Part shown: piece by piece, positions 1 to 46,965 of the stretch
Position numbering within the stretch: position 1 is the first letter of the stretch
How the letters are laid out: each line of letters opens with the position of its first letter
Assembly (NCBI GenBank): GCA_012845835.1
Contig: JABAKD010000017.1
Span: forward strand, 3,687,367-3,751,366
DNA length: 64,000 nucleotides
Direction of reading: 5' to 3'
Origin: Undaria pinnatifida
Taxonomy: Eukaryota; Sar; Phaeophyceae; Laminariales; Alariaceae
Notes under the pieces: generated by a model
Databases searched by the model: none
The model's input: the letters and a program-made list of their open reading frames with translations, nothing else
What the model was told of the DNA's origin: nothing
Made by a program: the position numbers and the translations under genes

Positions 1-25
1 ACCAAACACAAGTGCTGTGAAGAAA
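1..25 (+). CDS. Partial module exon, 3' end only
   Basis: The final 25 bp of a module exon (ending CCEE plus a phase-1 base) are followed by GTGAGT at 26. The array therefore continues upstream of the window, and its total copy number is higher than can be seen here. Confidence 0.8.
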
Positions 26-3000
26 GTGAGTCATAATCGAGTATATCAGGTTTTTGACGCTTCTCAAAAAGATGTTCGCTGTTGACACTTTTCAATATTT
101 GCACGACCGACCGCCGTCCCAATCACAAACGATTGGGGGCTATGCGTTTGACCCTCAAGTACTGGCAAATTTAACGAGAAGAGTCTGGCTGCACAACATC
201 CTCGACTGTTCCATCTGCCATGTTTGCCTTGTGTGTTTTTGACCAAGCAAGCATTTTTACCAATGATGTGTAGGTCTGGACAGCAGGTTCATTAATCCGA
301 TATTGCGCCACAAGTTGTTGTGCATTAGGTATTGCCTGCTGCCCTTCTATCCGAATAACGGCGCTGTTGATGCCACTGTGATCTTGGTGCCGTTACGGCT
401 TGACGCCAAGGACAATGCGGTAATGATGCTGATGATATTATTGTGATGAAATCACGCGACAAAAAGAAGATGAACCATACGCTGTACGCCAACTGTACGA
501 ATGATACATATATTCATCTCTTCGCGCAGAAAAAAAGGAGTACTACTACTGCGACTCCTACGAGTGCCCCGACAAGTACGACCTAGTGCACGGCGCTGAG
601 GACATCAAGTGCGACTACTCCGGGTGCACCAAACACAAGTGCTGTGAAGAAAGTGAGTCTCAGTCGAATATATCAGGTTTTTGACGTTTCTCAAGAGAAT
701 GTTCAATGCTGTCTCGCTATTTATATTCTTCAAGAATTGCACGACCGACCGTCCTACCAATCACAAACGATGAGGGCTATGGGTTTGACCCTCAAGTACT
801 GGCAATTTTAACGAGAAGAGTCTGGCCGCACAACATCCTCGACTGTTCCATCTGCCATGTTTGCCTTGTATTGTGTGTGTTCTTGACCAAGCAGGCATTT
901 TTACCAACGGACGGAGGGTTTGAGGTGTAGTTCTGGACAGCAGGTTCATTAATCCTGTATTGCCCCACAAGTTGTTGTGTATTAGGTATTGCCTGCTGCC
1001 CTCCTATCCGAATAACGGCGCTGTTGATGCCACTACATGTGATCTTGGTGTCGTTACCGCTTGACGTTAAGAACAATATGTTGATGATGCTGATGAAATC
1101 ATGAAGGTGATGAAATCACGGTGACGAGAAGGTGATGAATGATGATCTATACTCTGGACGCTTTCAAAAGCCCAACTTATGTTCAAACTACATTCGTTTT
1201 TCTCCACGCAGAAGAAAAGGAGTACTACTACTGCGACTCCTACGAGTGCCCCGACAAGTACGACCTAGTGCACGGCGCTGAGGACATCAAGTGCGACTAC
1301 TCCGGGTGCACCAAACACAAGTGCTGTGAAGAAAAAGAGTCATAATCGAGTATATCAGGTTTTTGACGCTTCTCAAAAAGATGTTCGCTGTTGACACTTT
1401 TCAATATTTGCACGACCGACCGCCGTCCCAATCACAAACGATTGAGGGCTATGCGTTTGAATTTCAAGCACTGGCAATTTTAACGAGAAGAGTCTGGCTG
1501 CACAACATCCTCGACTGTTCCATCTGCCATGTTTGCCTTGTGTGTTTTTGACCAAGCAAGCATTTTTACCAATGATGTGTAGGTCTGGACAGCAGGTTCA
1601 TTAATCCGATATGGCGCCACAAGTTGTTGTGCATTAGGTATTGCCTGCTGCCCTTCTATCCGAATAACGGCGCTGTTGATGCCACTGTGATCTTGGTGCC
1701 GTTACGGCTTGACGCCAAGGACAATGCGGTAATGATGCTGATGATATTATTGTGATGAAATCACGCGACGAAAAGAGGATGAACCATACGCTGTACGCCA
1801 ACTGTACGAATGATACATATATTCATCTCTTCGCGCAGAAAAAAAGGAGTACTACTACTGCGACTCCTACGAGTGCCCCGACAAGTACGACCTAGTGCAC
1901 GGCGCTGAGGACATCAAGTGCGACTACTCCGGGTGCACCAAACACAAGTGCTGTGAAGAAAGTGAGTCTCAGTCGAATATATCAGGTTTTTGACGTTTCT
2001 CAAGAGGATGTTCAATGCTGTCTCGCTATTTATATTCTTCAAGAATTGCACGACCGACCGTCCTACCAATCACAAACGATGAGGGCTATAGGTTTGACCC
2101 TTAAGTACTGGCAATTTTAACGAGAAGAGTCTGGCCGCACAACATCCTCGACTGTTCCATCTGCCATGTTTGCCTTGTATTGTGTGTGTTCTTGACCAAG
2201 CAGGCATTTTTACCAACGGACGGAGGGTTTGAGGTGTAGTTCTGGACAGCAGGTTCATTAATCCTGTATTGCCCCACAAGTTGTTGTGTATTAGGTATTG
2301 CCTGCTGCCCTCCTATCCGAATAACGGCGCTGTTGATGCCACTACATGTGATCTTGGTGTCGTTACCGCTTGACGTCAAGAACAATATGTTGATGATGCT
2401 GATGAAATCATGAAGGTGATGAAATCACGGTGACGAGAAGGTGATGAATGATGATCTATACTCTGGACGCTTTCAAAAGCCCAACTTATGTTCAAACTAC
2501 ATTCGTTTTTCTCCACGCAGAAGAAAAGGAGTACTACTACTGCGACTCCTACGAGTGCCCCGACAAGTACGACCTAGTGCACGGCGCTGAGGACATCAAG
2601 TGCGACTACTCCGGGTGCACCAAACACAAGTGCTGTGAAGAAAGTGAGTCTCAGTCGAATATATCAGGTTTATGACGTTTCTCAAGAGGATGTTCAATGC
2701 TGTCTTGCTATTTATACTCTTCAAGAATTGCACGACCGACCGCCCGACTAATCACAAACGATTGAGGGCTATTGGTTTGACCCTTAAGTACTGGCAATTT
2801 TAACGAGAAGAATCTGGCCGCACAACATCCTCGACTGTTCCATCTGCCATGTTTGCCTTGTGTTTGTTCTTGACCAAGCAAGCATTTTTACCAACGAACG
2901 AAGAGGTGTAGTTCTGGACAGCACGTTCATTAATCCGATATTGCACAAGTTGTTGTGCATCAGGTATTGCCTGCTGCCCTCCTACCCGAATAACGGCACT

Positions 3001-6000
3001 GTTGATGCCACTACATGTGATCTTGGTGTCGTTACTACTTAACGTCAAGGACAATATGTTGATGATGCTGATGAAATCATGAAGGTGATGAAATATCGCG
3101 ACGAGAAGGTGATGAATGATGATCTATACTCTGGACGCTTTCAAAAGCCCAACTTATGTTCAAACTACATTCGTTTTTCTCCACGCAGAAGAAAAGGAGT
3201 ACTACTACTGCGACTCCTACGAGTGCCCCGACAAGTACGACCTAGTGCACGGCGCTGAGGACATCAAGTGCGACTACTCCGGGTGCACCAAACACAAGTG
3301 CTGTGAAGAAAGTGAGTCATAATCGAGTATATCAGGTTTTTGACGCTTCTCAAAAAGATGTTCGCTGTTGACACTTTTCAAAATTTGCACGACCGACCGC
3401 CGTCCCAATCACAAACGATTGAGGGCTATGCGTTTGAATTTCAAGTACTGGCAATTTTAACGAGAAGAGTCTGGCTGCACAACATCCTCGACTGTTCCAT
3501 CTGCCATGTTTGCCTTGTGTGTTTTTGACCAAGCAAGCATTTTTACCAATGATGTGTAGGTCTGGACAGCAGGTTCATTAATCCGATATTGCGCCACAAG
3601 TTGTTGTGCATTAGGTATTGCCTGCTGCCCTTCTATCCGAATAACGGCGCTGTTGATGCCACTGTGATCTTGGTGCCGTTACGGCTTGACGCCAAGGACA
3701 ATGCGGTAATGATGCTGATGATATTATTGTGATGAAATCACGCGACGAAAAGAGGATGAACCATACGCTGTACGCCAACTGTACGAATGATACATATATT
3801 CATCTCTTCGCGCAGAAAAAAAGGAGTACTACTACTGCGACTCCTACGAGTGCCCCGACAAGTACGACCTAGTGCACGGCGCTGAGGACATCAAGTGCGA
3901 CTACTCCGGGTGCACCAAACACAAGTGCTGTGAAGAAAGTGAGTCTCAGTCGAATATATCAGGTTTTTGACGTTTCTCAAGAGGATGTTCAATGCTGTCT
4001 CGCTATTTATATTCTTCAAGAATTGCACGACCGACCGTCCTACCAATCACAAACGATGAGGGCTATAGGTTTAACCCTTAAGTACTGGCAATTTTAACGA
4101 GAAGAGTCTGGCCGCACAACATCCTCGACTGTTCCATCTGCCATGTTTGCCTTGTATTGTGTGTGTTCTTGACCAAGCAGGCATTTTTACCAACGGACGG
4201 AGGGTTTGAGGTGTAGTTCTGGACAGCAGGTTCATTAATCCTGTATTGCCCCACAAGTTGTTGTGTATTAGGTATTGCCTGCTGCCCTCCTATCCGAATA
4301 ACGGCGCTGTTGATGCCACTACATGTGATCTTGGTGTCGTTACCGCTTGACGTTAAGAACAATATGTTGATGATGCTGATGAAATCATGAAGGTGATGAA
4401 ATCACGGTGACGAGAAGGTGATGAATGATGATCTATACTCTGGACGCTTTCAAAAGCCCAACTTATGTTCAAACTACATTCGTTTTTCTCCACGCAGAAG
4501 AAAAGGAGTACTACTACTGCGACTCCTACGAGTGCCCCGACAAGTACGACCTAGTGCACGGCGCTGAGGACATCAAGTGCGACTACTCCGGGTGCACCAA
4601 ACACAAGTGCTGTGAAGAAAGTGAGTCATAATCGAGTATATCAGGTTTTTGACGCTTCTCAAAAAGATGTTCGCTGTTGACACTTTTCAAAATTTGCACG
4701 ACCGACCGCCGTCCCAATCACAAACGATTGAGGGCTATGCGTTTGAATTTCAAGTACTGGCAATTTTAACGAGAAGAGTCTGGCTGCACAACATCCTCGA
4801 CTGTTCCATCTGCCATGTTTGCCTTGTGTGTTTTTGACCAAGCAAGCATTTTTACCAATGATGTGTAGGTCTGGACAGCAGGTTCATTAATCCGATATTG
4901 CGCCACAAGTTGTTGTGCATTAGGTATTGCCTGCTGCCCTTCTATCCGAATAACGGCGCTGTTGATGCCACTGTGATCTTGGTGCCGTTACGGCTTGACG
5001 CCAAGGACAATGCGGTAATGATGCTGATGATATTATTGTGATGAAATCACGCGACGAAAAGAGGATGAACCATACGCTGTACGCCAACTGTACGAATGAT
5101 ACATATATTCATCTCTTCGCGCAGAAAAAAAGGAGTACTACTACTGCGACTCCTACGAGTGCCCCGACAAGTACGACCTAGTGCACGGCGCTGAGGACAT
5201 CAAGTGCGACTACTCCGGGTGCACCAAACACAAGTGCTGTGAAGAAAGTGAGTCTCAGTCGAATATATCAGGTTTTTGACGTTTCTCAAGAGGATGTTCA
5301 ATGCTGTCTCGCTATTTATATTCTTCAAGAATTGCACGACCGACCGTCCTACCAATCACAAACGATGAGGGCTATAGGTTTAACCCTTAAGTACTGGCAA
5401 TTTTAACGAGAAGAGTCTGGCCGCACAACATCCTCGACTGTTCCATCTGCCATGTTTGCCTTGTATTGTGTGTGTTCTTGACCAAGCAGGCATTTTTACC
5501 AACGGACGGAGGGTTTGAGGTGTAGTTCTGGACAGCAGGTTCATTAATCCTGTATTGCCCCACAAGTTGTTGTGTATTAGGTATTGCCTGCTGCCCTCCT
5601 ATCCGAATAACGGCGCTGTTGATGCCACTACATGTGATCTTGGTGTCGTTACCGCTTGACGTTAAGAACAATATGTTGATGATGCTGATGAAATCATGAA
5701 GGTGATGAAATCACGGTGACGAGAAGGTGATGAATGATGATCTATACTCTGGACGCTTTCAAAAGCCCAACTTATGTTCAAACTACATTCGTTTTTCTCC
5801 ACGCAGAAGAAAAGGAGTACTACTACTGCGACTCCTACGAGTGCCCCAACAAGTACGACCTAGTGCACGGCGCTGAGGACATCAAGTGCGACTACTCCGG
5901 GTGCACCAAACACAAGTGCTGTGAAGAAAGTGAGTCATAATCGAGTATATCAGGTTTTTGACGCTTCTCAAAAAGATGTTCGCTGTTGACACTTTTCAAT

Positions 6001-9000
6001 ATTTGCACGACCGACCGCCGTCCCAATCACAAACGATTGAGGGCTATGCGTTTGAATTTCAAGTACTGGCAATTTTAACGAGAAGAGTCTGGCTGCACAA
6101 CATCCTCGACTGTTCCATCTGCCATGTTTGCCTTGTGTGTTTTTGACCAAGCAAGCATTTTTACCAATGATGTGTAGGTCTGGACAGCAGGTTCATTAAT
6201 CCGATATTGCGCCACAAGTTGTTGTGCATTAGGTATTGCCTGCTGCCCTTCTATCCGAATAACGGCGCTGTTGATGCCACTGTGATCTTGGTGCCGTTAC
6301 GGCTTGACGCCAAGGACAATGCGGTAATGATGCTGATGATATTATTGTGATGAAATCACGCGACGAAAAGAGGATGAACCATACGCTGTACGCCAACTGT
6401 ACGAATGATACATATATTCATCTCTTCGCGCAGAAAAAAAGGAGTACTACTACTGCGACTCCTACGAGTGCCCCGACAAGTACGACCTAGTGCACGGCGC
6501 TGAGGACATCAAGTGCGACTACTCCGGGTGCACCAAACACAAGTGCTGTGAAGAAAGTGAGTCTCAGTCGAATATATCAGGTTTTTGACGTTTCTCAAGA
6601 GGATGTTCAATGCTGTCTCGCTATTTATATTCTTCAAGAATTGCACGACCGACCGTCCTACCAATCACAAACGATGAGGGCTATAGGTTTAACCCTTAAG
6701 TACTGGCAATTTTAACGAGAAGAGTCTGGCCGCACAACATCCTCGACTGTTCCATCTGCCATGTTTGCCTTGTATTGTGTGTGTTCTTGACCAAGCAGGC
6801 ATTTTTACCAACGGACGGAGGGTTTGAGGTGTAGTTCTGGACAGCAGGTTCATTAATCCTGTATTGCCCCACAAGTTGTTGTGTATTAGGTATTGCCTGC
6901 TGCCCTCCTATCCGAATAACGGCGCTGTTGATGCCACTACATGTGATCTTGGTGTCGTTACCGCTTGACGTTAAGAACAATATGTTGATGATGCTGATGA
7001 AATCATGAAGGTGATGAAATCACGGTGACGAGAAGGTGATGAATGATGATCTATACTCTGGACGCTTTCAAAAGCCCAACTTATGTTCAAACTACATTCG
7101 TTTTTCTCCACGCAGAAGAAAAGGAGTACTACTACTGCGACTCCTACGAGTGCCCCGACAAGTACGACCTAGTGCACGGCGCTGAGGACATCAAGTGCGA
7201 CTACTCCGGGTGCACCAAACACAAGTGCTGTGAAGAAAGTGAGTCATAATCGAGTATATCAGGTTTTTGACGCTTCTCAAAAAGATGTTCGCTGTTGACA
7301 CTTTTCAATATTTGCACGACCGACCGCCGTCCCAATCACAAACGATTGAGGGCTATGCGTTTGAATTTCAAGTACTGGCAAATTTAACGAGAAGAGTCTG
7401 GCTGCACAACATCCTCGACTGTTCCATCTGCCATGTTTGCCTTGTGTGTTTTTGACCAAGCAAGCATTTTTACCAATGATGTGTAGGTCTGGACAGCAGG
7501 TTCATTAATCCGATATTGCGCCACAAGTTGTTGTGCATTAGGTATTGCCTGCTGCCCTTCTATCCGAATAACGGCGCTGTTGATGCCACTGTGATCTTGG
7601 CGCCGTTACGGCTTGACGCCAAGGACGATGCGGTAATGATGCTGATGACATTATCGTGATGAAATCACGCGACGAAAAGAGGATGAACCATACGCTCTAC
7701 GCCAACTGTACGAATGATACATATATTCATCTCTTCGCGCAGAAAAAAAGGAGTACTACTACTGCGACTCCTACGAGTGCCCCGACAAGTACGACCTAGT
7801 GCACGGCGCTGAGGACATCAAGTGCGACTACTCCGGGTGCACCAAACACAAGTGCTGTGAAGAAAGTGAGTCTCAGTCGAATATATCAGGTTTTTGACGT
7901 TTCTCAAGAGGATGTTCAATGCTGTCTCGCTATTTATACTGTTCAAGAATTGCACGACCGACCGCCCGACTAATCACAAACGATTGAGGGCTATTGGTTT
8001 GACCCTTAAGTACTGGCAATTTTAACGAGAAGAGTCTGGCCGCACAACATCCTCGACTGTTCCATCTGCCATGTGTGCCTTGTGTTTGTTCTTGACCAAG
8101 CAAGCATTTTTACCAACGAACGAAGAGGAGTAGTTCTGGACAGCACGTTAATTAATCCGATATTGCACAAGTTGTTGTGCATTAGGTATTGCCTGCTGCC
8201 CTCCTACCCGAATAACGGCACTGTTGATGCCACTACATGTGATCTTGGTGTCGTTACTACTTAACGTCAAGGACAATATGTTGATGATGCTGATGAAATC
8301 ATGAAGGTGATGAAATATCGCGACGAGAAGGTGATGAATGATGATCTATACTCTGGACGCTTTCATAAGCCCAACTTATGTTCAAACTACATTCGTTTTT
8401 CTCCACGCAGAAGAAAATGAGTACTACTACTGCGACTCCTACGAGTGCCCCGACAAGTACGACCTAGTGCACGGCGCTGAGGACATCAAGTGCGATTACT
8501 CTGGGTGCACCAAACACAAGTGCTGTGAAGAAAGTGAGTCATAATCGAGTATATCAGGTTTTTGACGCTTCTCAAAAAGATATTCGCTGTTGACACTTTT
8601 CAAAATTTGCACGACCGACCGCCGTCCCAATCACAAACGATTGGGGGCTATGCGTTTGAATTTCAAGTACTGGCAATTTAAACGAGAAGAGTCTGGCTGC
8701 ACAACATCCTCGACTGTTCCATCTGCCGTGTTTGCCTTGTGTGTTTTTGACCAAGCAAGCATTTTTACCAATGATGTGTAGGTCTGGACAGCAGGTTCAT
8801 TAATCCGATATTGCGCCACAAGTTGTTGTGCATTAGGTATTGCCTGCTGCCCTTCTATCCGAATAACGGCGCTGTTGATGCCACTGTGATCTTGGTACCG
8901 TTACGGCTTGACGCCAAGGACAATGCGGTAATGATGCTGATGATGTTATTGTGATGAAATCACGCGACGAAAAGAGGATGAACCATACGCTGTACGCCAA

Positions 9001-12000
9001 CTGTACGAATGATACCTATATTCATCTCTTCGCGCAGAAAAAAAGGAGTACTACTACTGCGACTCCTACGAGTGCCCCGACAAGTACGACCTAGTGCACG
9101 GCGCTGAGGACATCAAGTGCGACTACTCCGGGTGCACCAAACACAAGTGCTGTGAAGAAAGTGAGTCTCAGTCGAATATATCAGGTTTTTGACGTTTCTC
9201 AAGAGGATGTTCACTGTCTCGCTATTTATACTCTTCAAGAATTGCACGACCGACCGTCCTACCAATCACAAACGATGAGGGCTATAGGTTTAACCCTTAA
9301 GTACTGGCAATTTTAACGAGAAGAGTCTGGCTGCACAACATCCTCGACTGTTCCATCTGCCATGTTTGCCTTGTATTGTGTGTGTTCTTGACCAAGCAGG
9401 CATTTTTACCAACGGACGGAGGGTTTGAGGTGTAGTTCTGGACAGCAGGTTCATTAATCCTGTATTGCCCCACAAGTTGTTGTGTATTAGATATTGCCTG
9501 CTGCCCTCCTATCCGAATAACGGCGCTGTTGATGCCACTACATGTGATCTTGGTGTCGTTAACGCTTGACGTCAAGAACAATATGTTGATGATGCTGATG
9601 AAATCATGAAGGTGATGAAATCACGCGACGAGAAGGTGATGAATGATGATCTATACTCTGGACGCTTTCAAAAGCCCAACTTATGTTCAAACTACATTCG
9701 TTTTTCTCCACGCAGAAGAAAAGGAGTACTACTACTGCGACTCCTACGAGTGCCCCGACAAGTACGACCTAGTGCACGGCGCTGAGGACATCAAGTGCGA
9801 CTACTCCGGGTGCACCAAACACAAGTGCTGTGAAGAAAGTGAGTCATAATCGAGTATATCAGGTTTTTGACGCTTCTCAAAAAGATGTTCGCTGTTGACA
9901 ATTTTCAAAATTTGCACGACCGACCGCCGTCCCAATCACAAACGATTGAGGGCTATGCGTTTGAATTTCATGTACTGGCAATTTTAACGAGAAGAGTCTG
10001 GCTGCACAACATCCTCGACTGTTCCATCTGCCATGTTTGCCTTGTGTGTTTTTGACCAAGCAAGCATTTTTACCAATGATGTGTAGGTCTGGACAGCAGG
10101 TTCATTAATCCGATATTGCGCCACAAGTTGTTTGCATTAGGTATTGCCTGCTGCCCTTCTATCCGAATAACGGCGCTGTTGATGCCACTGTGATCTTGGT
10201 GCCGTTACGGCTTGACGCCAAGGACAATGCGGTAATGATGCTGATGATATTATTGTGATGAAATCACGCGACGAAAAGAGGATGAACCATACGCTGTACG
10301 CCAACTGAACGAATGATACATATATTCATCTCTTCGCGCAGAAAAAAAGGAGTACTACTACTGCGACTCCTACGAGTGCCCCGACAAGTACGACCTAGTG
10401 CACGGCGCTGAGGACATCAAGTGCGACTACTCCGGGTGCACCAAACACAAGTGCTGTGAAGAAAGTGAGTCATAATCGAGTATATCAGGTTTTTGACGCT
10501 TCTCAAAAAGACGTTCGCTGTTGACACTTTTCAATATTTGCACGACCGACCGCCGTCCCAATCACAAACGATTGAGGGCTATGCGTTTGAATTTCAAGTA
10601 CTGGCAAATTTAACGAGAAGAGTCTGGCTGCACAACATCCTCGACTGTTCCATCTGCCATGTTTGCCTTGTGTGTTTTTGACCAAGCAAGCATTTTTACC
10701 AATGATGTGTAGGTCTGGACAGCAAGTTCATTAATCCGATATTGCGCCACAAGTTGTTGTGCATTAGGTATTGCCTGCTGCCCTTCTATCCGAATAACGG
10801 CGCTGTTGATGCCACTGTGATCTTGGTGCCGTTACGGCTTGACGCCAAGGACAATGCGGTAATGATGCTGATGATATTATTGTGATGAAATCACGCGACG
10901 AAAAGAGGATGAACCATACGCTGTACGCCAACTGTACGAATGATACATATATTTCGAGAGCCATCCATGCCGCTGTGTCCCCCCCCCCCCCCTGCCTCGA
11001 ACGCCCCCTTCTTCCCGATCACCCGCACCATCGCCTAGACCTAGCACCACACGTCCTCACCTAAAGCCCTTCCTCCCCCCCCCCCCTCCCCCCTCCAACG
11101 CCCCCTCTTTTCCGACCACCTGCACGATCGCCTAGACCTAGCACCACGCGTATAACAAGCATCTACATATATTTGAATCTCACAGCCGAAGTGTATTTGA
11201 ATATTATTTGTGACCTAAACCTCCTAAAAAATCCCCCCCTCCCCCCTCCCCCCCCCCTCTTGCTCTCCCTTACTCAAACACCCCACCAAATATCGAAATC
11301 CGCCACATTAATAAACACATCACGCACAGGATATCACCTCATTATCTTTCGAGAGCCATCCATGCCGCTGTGTCCCCCCCCCCCCCCCCCGCCTCGAACG
11401 CCCCCTTCTTCCCCATCACCCGCACCATCGCCTAGACCTAGCACCACACGTATAACAAACCCCTCCCCTAAAGCCCTTCTTCTCCCCCCCGCCCCCCCCC
11501 CCGCCCCCACACCCCCCACCTCCCCCCCAACCCATCCCAACCCCACCCCCTCGAACACGCCACCCTCTCTTTACTCACTGATTGTACGACTTACCCCAGG
11601 ATATACATGATAAAGTGATGTATTATTTCCAAAACCGTCACATTTATCCCCTCAAAATAATGTAGTTTCCAAGCACATATTGAGCTGCCCACACGCCCCC
11701 CCCCCCCCCCCGCCCCAACCCCCCCCTCCCCGCCCCCAATAATATACTGATGCCAAAACCGTCAGATTTATCCCCTCGAAAGGATTTATAGCTTACATGC
11801 ACAATTTGCCCCCCCCTCCCCTCCTCCAAACCCGCTCGCTTTTGATCAAAACCAGGCCCCCACGTCCTTCAAAACTCCGCCCCACCCCACTCACCGGTTA
11901 TTCGACTTACAAGACTAACTTGATCAAAGGTTACATTTCCCATCACAGCTGTCAGATTTTGTCCCCCTCAGAAACGGGTTTTATAGTTTCCGCGCACAGA

Positions 12001-15000
12001 CTGACTAAAATCACCCTGTTGACCCTGATAGCTACACTGTTGTTGTAAGGGGAGTCGCCGACCTATATCCTTAATGAGGACACACCACTCGTAATACGCG
12101 CGATCGGAGTATCACACACAGCTTGCAAATGAGTTTGGACGAAATCTTCGATCTCACAGCTGGTGTATTTTCATTTTTTAAAATATATTCATCTCTTCAC
12201 GCAGAAAAAAAGGAGTACTACTACTGCGACTCCTACGAGTGCCCCGACAAGTACGACCTAGTGCACGGCGCTGAGGACATCAAGTGCGACTACTCCGGGT
12301 GCACCAAACACAAGTGCTGTGAAGAAAGTGAGTCTGAGTCGAATATATCAGGTTTTTGACGTTTCTCAAGAGGATGTTCACTGCTGTCTCGCTATTTACA
12401 CTCTTCAAGAATTGCACGACCGATCGCCCGACTAATCACAAACGATTGAGGGCTATAGGTTTGACCCTTAAGTACTGGCAATTTTAACGAGAAGAGTCTG
12501 GCTGCACAACATCCTCGACGGTTCCATCTGCCATGTTTGCCTTGTGTTTGTTCTTGACCAAGCAAGCATTTTTACCAATGAACGAAGAGGTGTAGGTCTG
12601 GACAGCAGGTTAATTAATCCGATATTGCACAAGTTGTTGTGCTATAGGTAATGCCTGCTGCCCTCCTATCCGAATAACGGCGCTGTTGATGCCACTACAT
12701 GTGATCTTGGTGTCGTTACCGCTTGACGTCAAGAACAATATGTTGATGATGCTGATGAAATCATGAAGGTGATGAAATATCGCGACGAGAAGGTGATGAA
12801 TGATGATCTATACTCTGGACGCTTTCAAAAGCCCAACTTATATTGAAACTACATTTGTATTTTTCCACGCAGAAGAAAAGGAGTACTACTACTGCGACTC
12901 CTACGAGTGCCCCGACAAGTACGACCTTGTGCACGGCGCTGAGGACATCAAGTGCGACTACTCCGGGTGCACCAAACACAAGTGCTGTGAAGAAAGTGGG
13001 TCAAAATCAAATATAATATACGGTTTTTGACGCTTCTCAAAAGGATGTTCACTATTTACACTTTTCAAAATTGTCCCGACCGACCGTCCCACCAATCTCA
13101 AACGATTAAGAGCTATGCGTTTGAATTTCAAGTACTGGCAATTTAACGAGAAGAGTTACAACATCCTGGACTGTTCTATCTGCCATGTTTGCCTTGTGTT
13201 TGTTTTTGACCAAGCAAGCATTTTTCCAACGAACGGAGAGTTTGAGGTGTAGTTCTGGACAGCAGGTTCATTAATCCTGTATTGCCCCACAAGTTGTTGT
13301 GTATTAGGTATTGCCTGCTGCCCTTCTATCCGAATAACGGCGCTGTTGATGTCACTACATGTGATCTTGGTGTCGTTACTACTGAACGTCAAGGGCAACA
13401 TGTTGATGATGCTGATGAAATCATGAAGGTGATAAAATCACGCGACGAGAAGGTGATGAATGATGAACTATACTCTGGACGCTTTCAAAAGCCCAACTTA
13501 TGTCCAAACTAATATTCGCTTTTTTCTACGCAGAAGAAAAGGAGTACTACTACTGTGACTCCTACGAGTGCCCCGACAAGTACGACCTAGTGCACGGCGC
13601 TGAGGACATCAAGTGCGACTACTCCGGGTGCACCAAACACAAGTGCTGTGAAGAAAGTGAGTCATACTCGAATATATCAGGGTTTTGACGCTTCTCAAAA
13701 GGATGTTCGTTTATTACACTATCCAAAATTCGCACGACCGACCGCCGTCCCAATCACAAACGATTGAGGGCTATGCGATTGTCCTAAGTACTGGCAATTT
13801 CAACGAGAAACGTCTGGCTGCACAACATCCTCGACTGTTCCAACTGCCATGTTTGCCTTGTATTTGTTTTTGACCAACAAAGCATTTTTACCAACGAACG
13901 GAGGGTTTGAGGTGTAGTTCTGGACAGCAGGTTCATTAATCCTGTATTGCGCCACAAGTTGTTGTGTATTAGGTATCGCCTGCTGCCCTCCTATCCGAAT
14001 AACGGCGCTTTTGATGTCACTACATGTGATCTTGGTGTCGTTACTACTTAACGTCAAGGGCAACATGTTGATGATGCTGATGAAATTATAATGATGAAAT
14101 CACGCGATGAAAAGAGGATGAACCATACGCTGTACGCCTGCCGTACGAATGATACATATATTCTTCTCTTCGCGCAGAAAAAATGGAGTACTACTACTGC
14201 GACTCCTACACGTGCCCCGACAAGTACGACCTAGTGCACGGCGCTGAGGACATCAAGTGCGACTACTCCGGGTGCACCGAACACAAGTGCTGTGAAGAAA
14301 GTGAGTCTCAGTCGAATATATCAGGTTTTTGACGATTCTAAAGAGGATGTTCACTGTCTCGCTATTTATACTCTTCAAAATATGCACGACCGACCGCCCT
14401 ACCAATCACCAACGATTGAGGGCTATGCGTTCGACTCTTGAGTACTGGCAATTTTAACGAGAAGAGTCTGGCTGCACAACATCCTCGAAGGTTCCATCTG
14501 CCATGTTTGCCTTGTGTTTGTTTTTGACCAAGCAAGGTTTTTACCAAAAAACGGAGGGTTTGAGGTGTAGTTGTGGACAGCAGGTTCATTAATCCGATAT
14601 TGCGCAAGTTGTTGTGCATTAAGTATTGCCTGCTGCCCCCCTATCCGAATAACGGCGCTGTTGATGCCACCACATTTGATCTTGGTGTCGTTACTGCTTG
14701 ACGTCAAATACAACTAGTCGATGATGCTGATTAAATCATGAAGATGATGAAATCACGCGACGAGAAGGTGATGAATGATGAACTATACTCTGGACGCTTT
14801 CAAAAGCCCAACTTATGTTCAAACTACATACGCTTTTTTCCACGCAGAAGAGAAGGAGTACTACTACTGCGACTCCTACGAGTGCCCCGACAAGTACGAC
14901 CTAGTGCACGGCGCTGAGGACATCAAGTGCGACTACTCCGGGTGCACCAAACACAAGTGCTGTGAAGAAAGTGAGTCTCAGTCGAATATATCAAGTTTTT

Positions 15001-16245
15001 GACACTTCTCAAAAAGATATTTGCTGTTTACACTCTTCAAAATTGTCACGACCGACCGCCCTACCAATCACAAACGATTGAGGGCTATGGGTTTGACCCT
15101 CAAGTACTGGCAATTTTAACGAGAAGAGTCTGCCTGCAAAACATCCTCGACTGTTCCATCTGCCATGTTTGCCTTGTGTTTGTTCTTGACCAAGCAAGCA
15201 CTTTTACCAACAAACGGAGGGTTTTGAGGTGTAGTTCTGGACAGCAGGTTCATTAATCCGATATTGCGCCACAAATTGTATTGTTTATTAGGTATTGGCT
15301 GGCTGATCTCCTATCCGAATGACGGCGCTGTTGGTGCCACTGTGATCTTGGTGTCGTTACCGTCATCCGTTTTCCTCCACCCAGAAAAAAAAGAGTACTA
15401 CTACTGCGACTCCTACGAGTGCCCCGACAAGTACGACCTAGTGCACGGCGCTGACGACATCAAGTGCGACTACTCCGGGTGCACCAAACACAAGTGCTGT
15501 GAAGAGGGTGAGTGTCAATCGAATAATCAGGTTTCGACCCTTCAAAGAGGATGTTTTACAGTCTCGCTATTTTCACTCTTCAAAATTTGCACGACCGACC
15601 GTCGTACCAACCACAAAGGATCGAGGACTATATGCGGCTGACCCTTGAGTAGCTCACCTTTAACCATCTGAACCCAGTACTGGCATTTTTAACAGGCTTT
15701 TCTTTGACGTGCGAGAAGAGTCTGGCTGCACAACATCCCCGACTGTTTTAACTGCTATGCTTTCGTTGTGTTTGTTCCCGACCAAGCAAGGATTTTTATC
15801 AGCCGAGGGTTTCAGGAGTATATAGTTCTGGACAGCAGTTTCATTAATCCTCATTGCGCCGCAAGTTGTGGTGTGGCCTGCTGCCCTCCTATCCGCTGTT
15901 GATGCTACTGTGATGTTGGCGTCGTCACTGCATCACGCCAAGGACAGTATGGATGATGCTGATGAAACCATGAAGGTGATGATACCACGCAAAAGGAGAT
16001 GAACTATATCGTGGACGCTTTCACCGTGCCCAACTCATCTTCAAACCTCATTCATTCTTCTCCACGCAGAAAAAAAGGACTACTACTACTGCGACTCCTA
16101 CACGTGCCCTGACAAGTACACCCTCGTCGACAGCTGTAACAAGATCGCATGCGACTACTCGGGATGCACGACGGACCTGTGCTGCTACAGTTCGGTGAGA
16201 AAATATACTGTTGCGTTGTATGGCGTCGCGTTTTCTTCCGCATGA
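1..16245 (+). CDS. Multi-exon gene (5' end outside window) encoding about 23 tandem copies of a 41-residue six-cysteine module
   Basis: Exons lie at 1-25 (partial), 530-652, 1212-1334, 1839-1961, 2521-2643, 3189-3311, 3816-3938, 4498-4620, 5125-5247, 5807-5929, 6434-6556, 7116-7238, 7743-7865, 8411-8533, 9038-9160, 9716-9838, 10342-10464, 12205-12327, 12873-12995, 13534-13656, 14178-14300, 14848-14970, 15385-15507 and 16070-16194 (or to a stop at 16243-16245). Each standard exon is 123 bp, follows CGCAG, CCCAG or similar, and precedes GTGAGT (GTGGGT at 12996, GTGAGA at 16195). All standard introns are phase 1, so any exon can be gained, lost or skipped without a frameshift. Each module has spacing C-x4-C-x14-C-x4-C-x4-C-C and begins with a KEYYYC run. 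Regular disulfide-rich repeats suggest an extracellular or cell-wall protein; the paralogue at 40497 has a signal peptide. Binding partner and function are unknown. I do not recognise a named family. Joining all copies into one transcript is an inference. Confidence 0.75.
1212..1334 (+). CDS. Module exon with a destroyed 5' splice site
   Basis: The exon is intact (six Cys, 123 bp, acceptor CACGCAG), but the bases after GAAGAAA read AAGAGT instead of the GTGAGT seen in nearly every other copy. The GT is replaced by AA at 1335-1336. If it is not spliced, translation stops after about three more residues. If it is skipped, the frame is kept because the flanking introns are phase 1. A sequencing or assembly error cannot be excluded. 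Confidence 0.7.
2521..2643 (+). CDS. Hybrid module exon: type A upstream, type B downstream
   Basis: The exon is preceded by the type-A acceptor context (CTCCACGCAG) but followed by the type-B intron start (GTGAGTCTCAGTCG). Neighbouring A copies are followed by the CATAATCG type. The switch point lies within the exon, consistent with crossover or conversion through the best-conserved stretch. The following intron gives the unusual 668-bp spacing. Confidence 0.75.
5807..5929 (+). CDS. Module exon with a CPDK to CPNK substitution
   Basis: This is a standard 123-bp exon with intact splice sites and six Cys. The only coding change from its neighbours is Asp to Asn after the second Cys-Pro. It sits in the most homogeneous part of the array, so it postdates the last amplification. 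Confidence 0.75.
8411..8533 (+). CDS. Module exon with EEKE to EENE and two silent changes
   Basis: The 123-bp exon has intact acceptor and GTGAGT donor. It has one Lys-to-Asn change before the Tyr run and silent changes in the CDYSGC stretch (GAT, TCT). The flanking introns also carry extra differences, marking the edge of the homogenised block. Confidence 0.75.
10342..10464 (+). CDS. Hybrid module exon: type B upstream, type A downstream
   Basis: This exon has the type-B acceptor context (CTTCGCGCAG, exon start AAAAAAAGGAG) but is followed by the type-A intron start (GTGAGTCATAATCG). It is the reciprocal of the hybrid at 2521. Its downstream intron is the one interrupted by the poly-C element. 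Confidence 0.75.
10954..12182. mobile_element. Poly-C-rich element inserted in an array intron
   Basis: Array intron homology stops at 10953 and resumes at 12183. A 7-bp ATATATT lies at 10947-10953 and again at 12183-12189, a candidate target-site duplication. The insert has several C runs, two copies of a GAGCCATCCATGCCGCTG segment (near 10957 and 11349), repeated CGCCTAGACCTAGCACCAC, and a distinctive end running from TTTATAGTTTCCGCGCACAG through GGAGTCGCCGACCTATAT to GATCTCACAGCTGGTGTA. The same end occurs at about 35.3-35.5 kb and inverted at 38.6-40 kb. No transposase ORF is visible; Pro-rich ORFs come from the C runs. Confidence 0.7.
14178..14300 (+). CDS. Diverged module exon (three amino-acid changes)
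   Basis: The 123-bp exon keeps all six Cys, the CGCAG acceptor and the GTGAGT donor. Lys to Met occurs before the Tyr run, Glu to Thr between the first two Cys (as in the terminal module at 16070), and Lys to Glu after the fourth Cys. It belongs to the older 3' part of the array, where introns have diverged strongly. Confidence 0.75.
15385..15507 (+). CDS. Module exon in strongly diverged surroundings
   Basis: The acceptor is CACCCAG and the donor GTGAGT; the phase is unchanged. The exon differs from the central copies at only a few bases (Glu to Asp in the GAED stretch; ending GAAGAGG). The intron before it is shortened to 414 bp and both flanking introns have many changes. Exon conservation clearly exceeds intron conservation here. 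Confidence 0.75.
16070..16245 (+). CDS. Last, divergent module; probable 3' terminal exon
   Basis: The reading frame runs KKDYYYCDSYTCPDKYTLV and on to CTTDLCC, keeping the six-Cys spacing plus one extra Cys inside the x14 loop. It resembles the second module of the 43343 exon (PDKYT, CTTD-CC) more than the array consensus. A GTGAGA donor at 16195 would end the exon in phase 0, unlike every other copy. Reading through gives about 16 more residues to TGA at 16243-16245. I cannot tell which is used. No further module follows until 43343. Confidence 0.6.
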
Positions 16246-33879: not shown

Positions 33880-35515
33880 TACACCCAAACACTGGGTTGC
33901 ATACTGCATCTAACATCAAACCTTCTAGAATAGTAAACATTTCCAGGCAGATGATATAAAGGGATGTCTTCTTGCTACAATCAATCGTCAGGTTTGTGCC
34001 CTTTAAGGATTTAAAGTTTCCGCAGACGTTTTGAAGTTTCCCGCCCTTCCCCCCCCCTCCCCTCCCCCTCCCCCTATCCCTCTTGTTAAAAAAAAAAAAA
34101 CACCCCCTTCCCCCCCACGCCTCCCCCGATCCCTCCCCCCCCCTCCGCTCCCTTTTTTTTTCCGCCTAGTTTGTTCAAATGCCCCACTTACAATCGAAAT
34201 CGGCCAGAGTATTAAACACCTCTACGCAGTTGATATCACGTTATTACTTTCTGACCATCCATGACGTAGTTTTCATTCTTTCTCCCCGCCCCCCTGAACC
34301 CCCCCCCCTCCAACCCCCTCTTTTCCCACCACCCGCACGATCGCCTAGACCTAGCACCACGCGTATAACTAGCCCCTACATATCTTTCATCTCACTCCCG
34401 GAGTGTATTTGAATATTTTATGTGACCTGAACCTCCTGAAAAACCCTCCACCCCCCCCCCCCCGCGTTCTCGCTCTCCCTCGCTCAAACGCCCCACCTAA
34501 TGTCGAAATCCGCCAGATTAATAAACACTTCACGCACTACTGGATATCACCTCATTTTATCTTTCTAGAGCCATCCATGCCGCTGCTTCCCCCCCCCACC
34601 AGCCCCGCCCCCGCCCCCCGCCCCGAACGCCCTCTCCTTCCCAACACCCGCACCATCGCCTAGATCTAGCACCACACGTATAACAAACCCCTACATCTTT
34701 GCCATCTAAAGCCCTTCCCTCCCCCCCCCCCCCCCCGCCCCCCCCCCCACCACCACCACCCCGCCCCCACCCCCCACCTCCCCACCCCCCCTACCCCATC
34801 CCACCCCCACCCCATCGAACACTCCGCCCTCTACTCTCTGATTGTACGACTTACCCCAGGACATACATGATAAACTGATGCATTCTTTCCAAAACCGTCA
34901 CATATATCACCTTGAAAAATAATGTATAGTTTCCACGCACAGATTGAGCTGCCCCAACCGCCGCTCCCCGGCCCCAACCCCTCCCCCCCCCCCCCATGAT
35001 AGACTAGTGCATTTTTTATTTTTTACTCATTTATATATTTATTCATTTTTTCTTGCCCCAAACCGTCAGATTTATCCCGTTAAAGGATTTATAGCTTCCA
35101 CGCACAAATTGCCCGCCCGTCCGCCCCCCCCGCCCCCCTTCCCCCCCCCCTCCAACCCCGCCCCTTGTGATCAAAACCAGGCCGCCACGTCCTTCAAAAC
35201 CCCTCCCTTCACCGGTTATTCGACTTACATGATTGACTTGATAAACGGCTGCATTTCCTTCCACAGCTGTCAGATTTTGTCCCCCTCAGAAACGGGTTTT
35301 ATAGTTTCCGCGCACAGACTGCCTAACATCACCCTGTTGACCCTGATAGCTACACTCTGTAGTTGCAAGGGGAGTCGCCGACCTATATCTTTGAATGAGG
35401 ACACACAACTCGTAATACGCGCGATCGGAGTATCACACAAAGCTTGCAAAGATGAGTTTCGACAAAATATTCGATCTCACAGCTGGAGTGTATTTTTATT
35501 TTTTATAATATATGT
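33880..35515 (+). mobile_element. Poly-C-rich element, longest copy in the window
   Basis: About 1.6 kb with many C runs alternating with conserved islands: GAGCCATCCATGCCGCTG, CGCCTAGA-CTAGCACCAC, TTCCAAAACCGTCA, TTATTCGACTTACA, CAGAAACGGGTTTTATAG, GGAGTCGCCGACCTATATC, GCGCGATCGGAGTATCACAC, GCTTGCAAAGATGAGTTTCG and GATCTCACAGCTGGAGTGTA. The 3' islands match the insertion at 10954-12182. The start is uncertain; islands near 33.9 kb recur at about 44.05-44.19 kb. No transposase is seen. It could be a non-autonomous element or a satellite-like unit. Confidence 0.6.
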
Positions 35516-36879: not shown

Positions 36880-38635
36880 CTACTCGAGTTGTTTCCTTTT
36901 AAACTCGTTTTTCCACCACAATGTTGTCTGTTCATCATAGATAGAGAGAACTCGCGCGTGTTATGTTATGGTTCATAGTGTTTTTTTGGGGAGTACGTAC
37001 GTAGCTTACTTTGACAGCAGCAGCAGCAGCTGACATTGTTTGGTTGATCGCGCTTGCTTGTTGTGGAGATATAAAGTAGGTACTGCACGGGAAGGTGCTG
37101 ACAGGCTGGTAGAACACGCGAACAGACAGAGCTGTTGTTTACAATTGGACAACGGTCACTCACTGGAGACCAGATAATTCGTGACTTTGTGATTCTCGAG
37201 TTCATCGCCAGACAGCGAATCGGGGAAAGATGAAGCGCTTCACGCGAGGCACAGGGAGCGAGCGCGAAGAAAGCGTTGACAACGGGCCTCGCCTTGACCG
37301 GTATGACATTATATTACGTGCAGATACGGGTTGTTATTTGTCTCCTCAATCAATCCCCGATACTACTAGCGGGCCGAGAGCGTGTGTTTGCGTTCGGAAA
37401 CGGTTCGAGTGCGAGTTGTGTTGCATGCGCAATATCGAACATTATTAAATAAAGCGGGGAAATAGCAACAAATTCAACATCATGACCAAAAGCACATTCA
37501 TGCGCATCACAGATCGCGGCAACGAGATACCATCCGACTCTCCCCCCGAAAAAAGTACTTTCGGGGAATTTTTTATCACGTTTTTTTTTGCATCGTACAA
37601 AACAGACGTAGACCTATAGTCTAGTCTAGGACCGCAAGCTAGGCTTGAGAAAACAAAAGCGCGCAGGGTACATGGTTATTACTACCAGCACGATAGCGTG
37701 CGGCACACGTGCGCGCTGTATCTGACCCCCGCCTCACGAATACGTTCGTGAGCTGTAGCCTAGCCTCCCTCCAACAGTATAGTCTACATCACACGCTCGC
37801 ACACCTTGGATCCGTTTTCTTTGTTTTATTGTTTCAGATTTCCAAGAAGTGTTCGGTAAAAAACCGAAAAATCGTAACATTTTCCCCAATTTATTTCAAT
37901 GTGGCTTTGATTGCAGCACAGCACAATACAAGGAAATTTCTACCGCCAATGCCCAGAAAATTCCGATGCTGCGGGAAGTTGCACTTTAAGGCCTCCCCTT
38001 CCGCCTGACAGGACAACGCCTGCCAGAGAGGCTGCCGGTAGACCGGGCTCACACCGCCAAGCCCTCCTCAGTCACCCGTCGCCTACAACCAGCACAGCCT
38101 GTCTCACTCCCCACCTCTTCACCACAGCCCAACTCCACACCACCACCGCCGACCTCTCGCCGTCTCGGTGAGTTCCTACTACTGACACCTATCGGACACA
38201 CTCTGCGTTGCACGAATACATACATACAGCAGTTAGTATTACGCGCTCGTAGCTTGAGGAGTTCTTGGGCGTGCTCCCGAGGGCAACAGCACTGCGTACC
38301 CCTCGCGCTCGCAGCACTGCTTAGACGGGAGAATGCAAACTCAATCGTGCGTTTCGACTCGTTGCCGCACTGTATGTAGTTGTAGTCCAAAAAACGCTAA
38401 GTTGGTTTTTTTGCGCATGTGTTCAGGCCCGCGCACGCAGCACTCGTACTTGTAGCACTGCTGTGATGGGGAGATAGATGCACAATGGAGATCTCAATCT
38501 TGCTTGTTGTTTAGAGTCGTGCGCGGGAGATGTGCCGCACCTCATCTGCTGCTAGACGAAACCGGTGGCTTAGGTAGCACAATCCTTGGATCACAGCACG
38601 CGTCCTCTCAGCCCTGATACATGAGCCCAGATATT

Positions 38636-40496: not shown

Positions 40497-40575
40497 ATGA
40501 TTCAGCTCCTTATCTTCGTTGCGGCGGTGGGTGCTTTCGGCGCGGCAGCTGCCGTACAGATACCGTCCTCAAAAG
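40497..40575 (+). CDS. Exon 1: signal peptide
   Basis: The ATG is followed by a 17-residue hydrophobic core ending AAAA, with small residues suitable for signal peptidase. It ends AAA-G before GTGAGG. The preceding GAGAAG and the UTR acceptor nearby favour this ATG. Confidence 0.65.
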
Positions 40576-43500
40576 GTGAGGTCGAATGCTCTGCGCACGT
40601 GGGGTCGGTTTAGCCATGTATGTGTATTAGCGCACAATATCTCAGCTGAAGTGTTTAGAAGATTTTTTCAAAAATCTACTCGGAAGACGTACTGCAGTTA
40701 TATTCCTAACGTAAAATCGGGTTTCCAGAAAATGAGGCATCGATGATACGGAGGTGGCCCCGTGATTTGGAACCGGTGAATTACTTGGAGAACCTAGGCC
40801 ACATCGATCATTGTGCCTGTTTCCCACGAACCCAAAGCCAGAGAACATACGTTGAAGGAGAAATACTGACCATCCCACCCACACAAGTTATGCATGCAGT
40901 AGTGTCTTGTTTAACAACCTTAGCGGATCGGAGAGATCTGCGAGCGCCTTGCAACACTCAGCCCCGTGCGAAAGCAACTAGGGATGCCTTCAAATGGGTC
41001 CGAGATTGAAACAAAGCTGTTGGTTCCGGGCTATCAGTGCGGAGGTGCGTCCCGGGCGAGACCCTCCTGCTTAGGGGCATGACGCCTCATCTAATCCAAC
41101 ACTTACTTTAAATGATCGGTGAAGCCGCAGAAAATACTACAGTAACCGCGCACCACAGATGTTCGGAAGGTGCTAGCAACGGGGTTGTGGTGTGTGATCA
41201 AGGCGCTAAGATAGGCAGGGGTTCATCTAGTTTTTTACTTGTTGATGCGTCCGGAAATTTCGTGGACGATGTACATGTCTGGATGGCTTTCTGCAGTGTG
41301 TTATAAGGATTAGTTTGGGTAAGCTATTGGTTAATCCTTTGCAAGTGGTAAAAAAACGGACTAATACCCCACTAATTCCTCAACAAATGGCGTCGTCGGC
41401 AGTGATCATAGGTGTTTTGGTCGTGGGTTCGAGCCCCACATTCACCATAATAAACTTTTTCAGACTTTTCCCATGTCGAATTTGAAAAATACTCTTCCCG
41501 GTATCCCAAGGAAATGAATCCGCTTGGATATTGACAGGTCCGCCCGTCTATCCGGCCGACCTGCTATCCCGCCGTTTCAGGGGGGGAGAATGTTATACGG
41601 CTTGGTTTGGGAAAGCTATCGGTTAACCTTTTGCAGGAGGTCAAACGGACCAATACCCCACTAATTCCTTCACGAATATAGTCTACTGTGGCACCTTCTA
41701 GAGGGACTACTAATAAAAGTATAGGCGTTTCGATCTTGATCACTTATTTTATTGCTTTTTTTTCCCCTGGAACATATGCACGGCATGCTACAGCAGGGGT
41801 TACCCAATACGGCGGCCTAGTAAGGCGGTATCCCGATATAAGGCGGCCAAACTCGCTTAGCGCGACCAGAGAATTGCACTCATAACGAGGAATGAGTAAG
41901 GCGGGATCCCTCCATAAGGCGGTCACATTGCTCTGGGACGCGTGTGTTAAGATGCGGCCTCGAAAGGCAGGTAATTATCCGAATTTGAGATCATTTGGAT
42001 GGGTTTCGTATGATAAGTAAGGTTGGCGTTTTATATTTGGGAAAGTTAGGAAATAGATCGGAGGCACGTGCCTCCGATCTCAGACGTCATCCGGGGCTCT
42101 GGTGGAATCGAATAAAGCTACGTCTCTACGAAGGAAAAGAAAGTGAGTACTCTCCGAGGACGTGCTCAATTGGCAGACCTGCAGAGGGCACTCTGTGTCC
42201 CCATCTAATAACCTAACACATGGCGTCGACGGCAGGACAAAGAGAAAAGAGGTGCACCACTTTTTTTCTTTGAGGTTCCTCGATTTGGGAGCGCTCAAGA
42301 CATGTCCCTCCCGAAACTGATTTGGAGAAAAACAAAACTGCTACCGGATGAAAATTTCCGTCATCGCCTAGGGTATACCACGATATTTTCATGCAAGCAA
42401 AACGGCCAATTTTCGGTTAAGGGGCCCCATCATTCAGAAACAAAGAAAAGCCAAAAAGTGCTACCTCTAGCCTACCATGCGTCCTGGCACACCACCGCCT
42501 TTTTTCCTGGGGGAGGGGCTAAAGTAAAGGGAGGCGGGGCGAGCTGCGGTAGATCTATCGATCTTGAACACTTTGCTCGCACATTTTTGCTTTCCCCCCT
42601 TGAATATCTGCACAGCGTGTGGTCGAGGATTGGGTTGTGCCTCTTGTGTCGTTCAATCCACGAGGGGAGATCCGTTCGTGTCTGGAATAAGTAAAAAGTA
42701 AACGACGGCTACCGGCAGACACTCTATATATACTGGTATACCGAACGCCCAGGGAGCATGTGCATAAGCCACCAGCGAACACTACATGGAAGAGCATTTC
42801 CGTTACGTCTGCCGCCGCGGTTGTACTGTTGTAAACGGTAAGCCAACGCTGAAATCCACCCATTCCCCCAGGAACCACCACACGTTTGTTGGACATGGTG
42901 CTGGGGATGAAAACCAAAGCCCGTATCACAACACCAATATAAATATCCCAACTCTTGTGTTTTTCGAACTCTTTGTCCTACAACCTGCAGGCGTGTTGTC
43001 AGGAAAGGCCGTCCAACGTCCCCGCGGCAGGCGCTCTCTGAAGGTACGATGCAGCATCGAAGCTGTAGCGCCTCGGTAGTACTACTACTACTCGTACTTA
43101 TTGTTTTCGCAGTATTTGGGAATCACGCACTTTCTGCTGTTCTTAGAATGCACTTAACTATGGGCATCCTTTCCGCCGTGGGACATGCTGCGCAATAGGT
43201 GATAAATCACGGATCGTGCAGCATTTGTCACACCACTTTGTACTCTTGATAGCACTTCTGACACGATACTACTAGACACTGAGCGAGTACCCTACAAATC
43301 AAATGCCGATTTCCCGCTTACATGAATGCTGCTGCCGGACAGCACGAGGGGGTGTACTGCGACTCTATAGGTTGCACTAATGGGTATACTCCGATCAAAG
43401 ACGCCGACAAGGTCAAGTGCGACAACGGCAAGTGTGAGCCCAAGCAGTGCTGCGAGGAACTCTGCCCGCACTACGCGTGCCCCGACAAGTACACCCCGAT

Positions 43501-43582
43501 ATATGGCGCTGACACCCTCTTGTGCGACTACTCAGGGTGCACCACCGACAAGTGTTGCGAGAAGGTGAGCATCACTTTGTGA
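40497..43582 (+). CDS. Secreted two-module cysteine-rich protein, paralogue of the array gene
   Basis: Three exons are joined by consistent phases. 40497-40575 encodes a 26-residue N-terminus (MIQLLIFVAAVGAFGAAAA, then VQIPSSK) typical of a signal peptide, with a phase-1 donor GTGAGG. 42991-43043 (acceptor CCTGCAG, donor GTACGA) enters in phase 1 and leaves in phase 0. It encodes GVLSGKAVQRPRGRRSLK, whose RGRR/S is a furin/kexin-type site. 43343-43564 (acceptor GGACAG) is phase 0 and encodes two modules with exactly the array spacing C-x4-C-x14-C-x4-C-x4-C-C. The sequence then either splices at GTGAGC (43565) or reads VSITL to TGA at 43580-43582, giving about 123 residues. Secretion and prodomain cleavage are inferences. 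The function is unknown. The phase agreement of an independently found 53-bp exon supports the model. Confidence 0.65.
41299..41674 (+). mobile_element. Miniature LTR-flanked (TRIM-like) element in intron 1
   Basis: Two direct repeats of about 85 bp begin TGTTATA-GG (41299 and 41591). They share TTTGGG-AAGCTAT-GGTTAA, then TTTGCA, and end AATACCCCACTAATTCCT. The left repeat ends CAACA, followed by AA and TGGCGTCGTCGGCAG, a tRNA-primer-site-like TGG. The right repeat is preceded by the purine run AGGGGGGGAGAA, like a polypurine tract. The internal region is only about 205 bp and encodes nothing. No clear target duplication is seen. A similar CATGGCGTCGACGGCAG occurs at about 42220. Confidence 0.55.
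41388..41449 (+). other. tRNA-like segment with perfect T-arm and B box
   Basis: GTGGG-TTCGAGC-CCCAC forms a perfect 5-bp T-stem with 7-nt loop and a canonical Pol III B box (GGTTCGAGCCC). ATTCACCA follows, like an acceptor 3' strand. TGGCGTCGTCGG, 40 bp upstream, is close to an A box. No matching 5' acceptor or clear anticodon arm can be folded, so this is not a functional tRNA. It may be tRNA-derived sequence inside the LTR mini-element. Confidence 0.45.
42055..42080. other. 26-bp perfect palindrome
   Basis: AGATCGGAGGCAC followed directly by its reverse complement, with no spacer. Role unknown. Confidence 0.8.
42250..42484 (+). mobile_element. MITE-1 copy, degraded ends
   Basis: AGAGGTGCACCACTTTTTTT, CCTCGATTTGGGAGCGCTC, ACTGATTTGGAGAAAAAC, CATCATTCAGAAAC and ACCTCTAGCCTACCATGCGT. 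It lies in intron 1 of the secreted-protein gene. Confidence 0.7.
42991..43043 (+). CDS. Exon 2: basic linker with furin-like site
   Basis: A 53-bp exon with pyrimidine-rich acceptor (CTACAACCTGCAG) and GTACGA donor. Its phase (1 in, 0 out) is what is needed to join exon 1 to exon 3. It encodes a Lys/Arg-rich stretch with RPRGRRS. Confidence 0.5.
43343..43582 (+). CDS. Exon 3: two six-Cys modules
   Basis: Module 1 is CDSIGC, 14 residues, CDNGKCEPKQCC. Module 2 is CPHYAC, 14 residues (PDKYTPIYGADTLL), CDYSGCTTDKCC. Unlike the array, both modules share one exon and its phases are 0. Module 2 retains the CDYSGCT core of the array and the CTTD of the 16070 terminal module. Confidence 0.75.
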   Translation, partial: HEGVYCDSIGCTNGYTPIKDADKVKCDNGKCEPKQCCEELCPHYACPDKYTPIYGADTLLCDYSGCTTDKCCEKVSITL

Positions 43583-46767: not shown

Positions 46768-46965
46768 GTTGTAAAAACAAAAAAAAACGCACTGAGTTTA
46801 TTTGCTGTCCCCAAACCTGTGAGATCATCGAAGACTTCGTTGACACTCATCTTTGGAGGCTGTGTTGTGACAGTCCGATCGCGCGTGTTACGGACTGTGT
46901 ATTCTTCGTGAAGGGTACACGTCGGCGACTCCCACCCTTGGCCCTAGCTGGTACCAGGGTCAACA
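46768..46965 (-). repeat. Poly-C element tail, reversed
   Basis: CTGTGAGATCATCGAAGACT, CACTCATCTTTGGAGGCTG, CGATCGCGCGTGTTACGG and GTCGGCGACTCCCACC match the 3' island of the poly-C element. A more diverged reversed piece is at about 57866-57985. Confidence 0.6.

Follow-up and report, generated by a model that had tools for sequence, protein, structure and literature searches.

What does a run of near-identical 123-nt exons encode, spread over the first 16,245 positions of a 64,000-nt stretch of Undaria pinnatifida DNA (here termed the window), and how might so many copies have arisen? An earlier note on this DNA described at least 23 such exons, separated by introns of 400-560 bp, and took them to encode modules with six Cys residues. 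The 22 full exons of 123 nt and phase 1-1 that it listed are present at positions 530-15507, with CAG acceptors, and a divergent terminal exon does follow, starting at 16070; its end at 16245 corresponds to the stop that is reached by reading on from the last exon. The array is thus real, but larger than proposed, as six exons lie upstream and the total is 29 modules. The supposed partial exon at positions 1-25 belongs to an exon that is complete (-97..25) and forms its 3' end. The proposed intron size is close to that found in the window, where introns between array exons are 414-562 nt long with the exception of one enlarged to 1,740 nt; farther upstream, however, they range from 172 to 2,915 nt.

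To complete the gene model, reading was extended 50 kb upstream of the window (Table 1; window position p is contig position C23:3687366+p, and negative positions lie upstream of the window). The gene begins with a signal-peptide exon and a short propeptide exon with a dibasic site, followed by the 29 module exons, the six upstream ones reaching to -2888. The first module exon is 115 nt long and starts in phase 0, exons 2-4 are 117 nt each, and 24 of the module exons are 123 nt long. When joined in silico, the 31 exons give 3,672 nt, or 1,224 codons, in a single frame with no stop codon before the last exon ends. Reading the terminal exon through to the stop at 16243-16245 gives a product of 1,240 residues, and a two-module paralogue in the window likewise ends by read-through of its last exon into a stop. 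The pattern C-x4-C-x14-C-x4-C-x4-CC is found, exactly as first described, in 29 of 29 modules. The suggestion of an in-frame, spliceable beads-on-a-string protein made of one six-Cys module is therefore supported by computation, as a prediction, and the protein has a likely export signal. Rfam at gathering scores and a tRNA scan gave no result over the window, and no minus-strand module copy in the window reached 60/112 identities.

Table 1. Features of the array gene, its neighbours and the sister array (window positions, unless a contig position is given)
Feature	Position	Strand	Remarks
Signal-peptide exon, array gene	-6248..-6170	+	26 codons plus one base, phase-1 donor
Propeptide exon, array gene	-3254..-3205	+	Dibasic site, common to two-module paralogue
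Module exon 6	-97..25 (C23:3687269-3687391)	+	Window 1..25 is its 3' end
16 module exons, 123 nt, phase 1-1	530..10464	+	Listed in next two rows
Module exons	530-652, 1212-1334, 1839-1961, 2521-2643, 3189-3311, 3816-3938, 4498-4620, 5125-5247	+	
Module exons	5807-5929, 6434-6556, 7116-7238, 7743-7865, 8411-8533, 9038-9160, 9716-9838, 10342-10464	+	
6 older module exons, 123 nt	12205-12327, 12873-12995, 13534-13656, 14178-14300, 14848-14970, 15385-15507	+	
Terminal divergent module exon	16070..16245	+	Donor-like GTGAG at 16195, or read-through to stop 16243-16245
Lost 5' splice site after exon 1212-1334	1335..1336	+	AA in place of GT
Run of three dimer units of 1,309 bp, each with two exons and two introns	3189..7115	+	0 or 2 differences between copies
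Dispersed C-rich repeat inside array intron 10465-12204	10955..12180	.	Ends approximate, by eye
Two-module paralogue	40,497-43,582	+	123 aa; signal peptide, propeptide and two modules as in array gene
Paralogue signal-peptide exon	40497..40575	+	Ends in phase 1
Paralogue propeptide exon	42991..43043	+	Dibasic site, phase 1 to 0
Paralogue divergent two-module exon, to stop	43343..43582	+	
Divergent paralogue	~C23:3669660-3675660 (window ~-17,710 to -11,710)	minus	Signal-peptide, propeptide and module exons in order
Sister array	C23:4,760,537-4,763,695 (region C23:4758699-4765384)		9 phase 1-1 exons of 114 nt

The leader of the array gene was judged on two grounds only, hydrophobicity and homology. 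A scan of positions -14,000 to -3,250 for a hydrophobic leader followed by a phase-1 donor gave a single candidate, which is identical to the leader of the two-module paralogue at 14 of 26 residues, is equal to it in length (26 codons), and has the same phase-1 donor; the propeptide exon also occupies the matching place in both genes. The same kind of scan, with looser limits on donor and hydrophobicity, returned five chance-like leaders in eight other groups of genome segments. The evidence for the leader is therefore its homology to the paralogue rather than the scan. Neither a convincing propeptide exon nor a pair of leader and propeptide exons was found in those eight groups, which may not reach the gene starts. 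The layout of signal peptide, dibasic propeptide and modules is shared by the array gene and two neighbours, one of which is broken.

A run of this kind could also be a relic, the product of a tandem amplification that has ceased to function as a gene. One donor has been lost, an intron bears a 1.2-kb insertion, and several exons of the upstream paralogue on the minus strand contain stops, that paralogue being apparently a pseudogene. The array gene itself, however, has no stops in 31 exons, AG at 30 of 30 acceptors, and GT after 30 of 31 exon ends, that of the last exon included, and codon-level selection (see below) is strong in a sister array and weaker in this one, making a relic quite improbable. 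The lost donor would lead either to skipping of one module or to a message that is cut short: if exon 1212-1334 is skipped the frame is kept, with 1,183 codons and no stops, and if reading continues past it a stop follows within a few codons.

The introns provide a record of how the array may have grown. Two intron types, with consensus sequences 15.5% apart, alternate along most of the array, and this alternation identifies a two-exon dimer as the amplification unit in its middle. The copies are homogeneous in the middle and diverged at both edges, a combination that is the usual mark of unequal crossing-over. Within the array introns, the central part (alignment columns ~150-350) is more alike among copies than the ends are. 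The near-identity of three dimer units, which differ from one another at 0-2 of 1,309 positions, could also be produced in assembly, and the exact copy number could be wrong. Against an artefact, the copies carry private variants and the edges have diverged. Moreover, array exons share 97-98% identity with two of the proteins that match the module, P0043 and P0044, which come from ENA contigs (the longest ~15 kb), though possibly from the same material; P0044 reads, by eye, into the same introns as exon -1727, which places its source in this species or one very close to it. That the array is an assembly artefact is very improbable on these grounds.

The one enlarged intron (10465-12204) was said to have grown by an insertion, and this is the case, the insert being a dispersed C-rich repeat of ~1.2 kb. 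A second copy, at ~34,280-35,510, is 78% identical to it. The repeat family shows a strong strand skew and occupies positions 10955-12180, 34130-35510, 38630-39890 and 46820-46970 of the window; the copy in the array intron sits between possible ATATATT repeats, as judged by eye.

After removal of the propeptide, the predicted mature chain would be 1,181 residues long, taken as far as the last exon extends, with a pI of 4.8, unlike the mussel adhesives, which are basic. Five residues dominate its composition, Lys (14.9%), Cys (14.8%), Tyr (14.3%), Asp (13.0%) and Glu (12.4%), and it has no N-glycosylation motif. A chain of repeated small domains might be a polyprotein precursor, cut between beads to release many copies of a 40-residue (or two-bead) disulfide-rich peptide for defence, inhibition or signalling. 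Identical copies are typical of peptide precursors, there are 15 KK pairs in the mature chain, the linkers between modules mostly alternate between KEK (11 of 28) and KKK (10 of 28), and many relatives of the module are two-bead units. However, the mature chain contains no KR, RR or RK, though the propeptide has one dibasic site, and this fits an uncut chain; the linker alternation is not strict, and it follows from the dimer being the unit of duplication. We therefore regard cleavage into peptides as unlikely.

The module belongs to a family that is widely duplicated in this genome. In a search of 511,146,479 bases on 68 contigs, 150 of 248 candidates were scored, so that all counts are lower bounds; at least 108 matches at E <= 0.01 were found, at least 104 of them on C23 between 3.67 and 6.08 Mb, with 29 in the array gene, and the others on C27 (1), C52 (2) and C56 (1). 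Twelve further stretches of the genome fall into nine groups, eight of which hold modules in the form of two-module exons, tandem gene copies or a second array, and the ninth, directly to the right of the window, holds none. The second array, hereafter the sister array, lies ~1.06 Mb from that of the window, has a core pitch of ~370-390 bp, and also has two alternating intron types. At C23:4574776-4588050, exons of the same family occur in three copies at a spacing of 3,308 bp, with a fourth 5.7 kb before them, and this spacing is whole-gene tandem duplication beside exon duplication. Elsewhere in the window, a minus-strand frame at 58680-59387 has a match to the WSC domain (E 4e-6, 27.4 bits against a cut-off of 27.8), a domain frequent in brown algae, and continues into long stretches of CACCAA repeats.

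The two arrays allow divergence of the modules to be set against that of the introns between them. In the sister array (nine exons of 114 nt and eight introns, five surrounding one-module exons being dropped from the count), mean divergence is 0.306 in introns, 0.305 at synonymous sites and 0.031 at nonsynonymous sites, a pN/pS of ~0.1, and 18 of 23 variable columns are at third positions (P 1.3e-5, columns counted by hand). Synonymous sites thus diverge as fast as introns do, whereas the protein is conserved, which argues strongly that the modules are translated and are under purifying selection for sameness. The window array gives a weaker signal in the same direction. Here 24 exons of 123 nt were taken with the 23 following introns of normal length, and pairwise means rest on 23 exons, the 1,740-nt intron having been dropped. 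Averaged over pairs of copies, introns diverge by 0.134, synonymous sites by 0.032 and nonsynonymous sites by 0.0126 (pN/pS 0.39), with 9 of 15 variable codon columns at the third position (P 0.03, again counted by hand).

In the window array, synonymous divergence also lies below that of the introns (block-sampled P 0.010; P 0.075 for the A/B comparison alone), and variants that recur in two or more copies on each side occupy 2 of 123 exon columns as against 130 of 503 intron columns. Gene conversion or homogenisation limited to exons may have lowered the synonymous divergence. We raise this as a possibility and not as a claim, because some sites in the exon columns are constrained, P is only 0.075 when A and B alone are compared, the copies lack independence, and no such effect is seen in the sister array.

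Beyond this genome, 51 proteins matched the module, including proteins annotated without a name in Ectocarpus (P0006), Scytosiphon (P0032) and Laminaria (P0016), in which the module is the same by sequence. The Ectocarpus protein and a eukprot protein (P0005) are chains of modules with, by eye, a hydrophobic leader at the start. No long array was present among the 31 of 51 relatives examined, the brown-algal ones having one to about six modules. No Pfam family, LRR included, matched the module above cut-off with a three-module query, P0001 or 36 relatives, and viral contigs searched with P0001 gave no match. An AlphaFold model of the two-module paralogue, built with 36 of the 51 relatives, reached pLDDT 79 and pTM 0.56 (pLDDT 65 in a four-sequence run), and no usable match in the PDB was returned by Foldseek for both models or by VIA-align for the second. 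The sole match in PDB sequence searches was PcF of the oomycete Phytophthora (2bic), for which a single sequence gave E 0.1, a 10-row profile 0.6 and a 36-row profile 0.011. PcF is a single small domain with a Cys spacing that differs from that of the module, and it is missing from the Pfam matches of 36 family members at E <= 1; the match is a hint, and no more, of remote kinship within stramenopiles. The Cys-rich EsV-1-7 (IMM) family of Ectocarpus has the motif C-x4-C-x16-C-x2-H, whereas all 29 array modules have C-x4-C-x14-C-x4-C.

The earlier note held the array to be a candidate for an undescribed system, and this is too strong, as genes built from symmetric module exons in tandem are already known. 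The kringle, for instance, is a secreted and disulfide-rich domain. The human LPA KIV-2 is reported as a protein-coding tandem repeat of 5.6-kb units, present in 1-40 copies per allele (PMC11462820); the likeness lies in the tandem repetition of whole coding units, the module being unrelated and the comparison here being with one genome. Closer, and in all likelihood from the same lineage, are the LRR arrays of brown-algal ROCO GTPases, which share with this array one repeat per exon, a uniform phase and tandem duplication, and for which 72-bp phase 2 exons, diversifying selection and alternative splicing are reported (PMC11378527). The arrays described here differ in having phase 1 exons of 123 and 114 bp, Cys-rich beads and a likely export signal, and in the purifying selection of the sister array (pN/pS ~0.1, as against 0.39 in the window array) where the LRR arrays diversify.

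These comparisons bear on whether the protein is a multivalent ligand binder, lectin-like or an immune decoy, with an avidity that depends on bead number. Probable secretion, multivalency and a much duplicated family, with at least 104 of at least 108 matches on C23, would all suit such a role. Yet the beads of the sister array are kept alike, where brown-algal recognition repeats are reported to diversify (PMC11378527), and the Pfam searches returned no sugar-binding family. Ligand binding is on balance a doubtful though possible function.

The explanation that we favour, and to which we would give an even chance, is that the locus is one gene whose product is secreted and multivalent, consists of 29 six-Cys beads that are nearly identical, and has a structural or adhesive role in the cell wall or in the matrix of the holdfast. 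The array would lengthen by unequal crossing-over between its phase-symmetric repeats, as LPA KIV-2 does, gaining exons in pairs and becoming homogeneous in the middle, and all module exons would be spliced into one message. The protein would then be exported, trimmed once at the dibasic site of the propeptide, and remain one chain, with three disulfides closing each bead. The abundance of Tyr (14%) and Lys (15%) may make the protein an oxidatively cross-linkable component of the matrix, a pointer that is suggestive only; oxidative cross-linking of phenolics and their complexing with alginate are on record in brown algae (PMC8307928). Copy number would set the length of the chain, with the sequence of the bead held constant. 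More tentatively, the gene may represent a structural coding VNTR, namely an extracellular-matrix or holdfast protein in which copies of symmetric exons set length, selection keeps beads constant, homogenisation is limited to exons, and a sister array has arisen separately on the same chromosome.

No publication on the six-Cys module was recognised from titles and the openings of abstracts. As far as these searches go, what is new is the module family, the scale, the recurrence in one cluster, and selection for identity over diversity. In macroalgae most structural proteins of the cell wall have yet to be characterised, as a review states (PMC8307928). The locus offers a concrete candidate family, rich in Cys, Tyr and Lys, with a likely export signal and at least 108 module matches in one genome, and in its two exon arrays the intervening introns serve as a yardstick for selection towards sameness. 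Should cultivars prove to differ in copy number, the array could be used directly as a marker of wall or holdfast traits.
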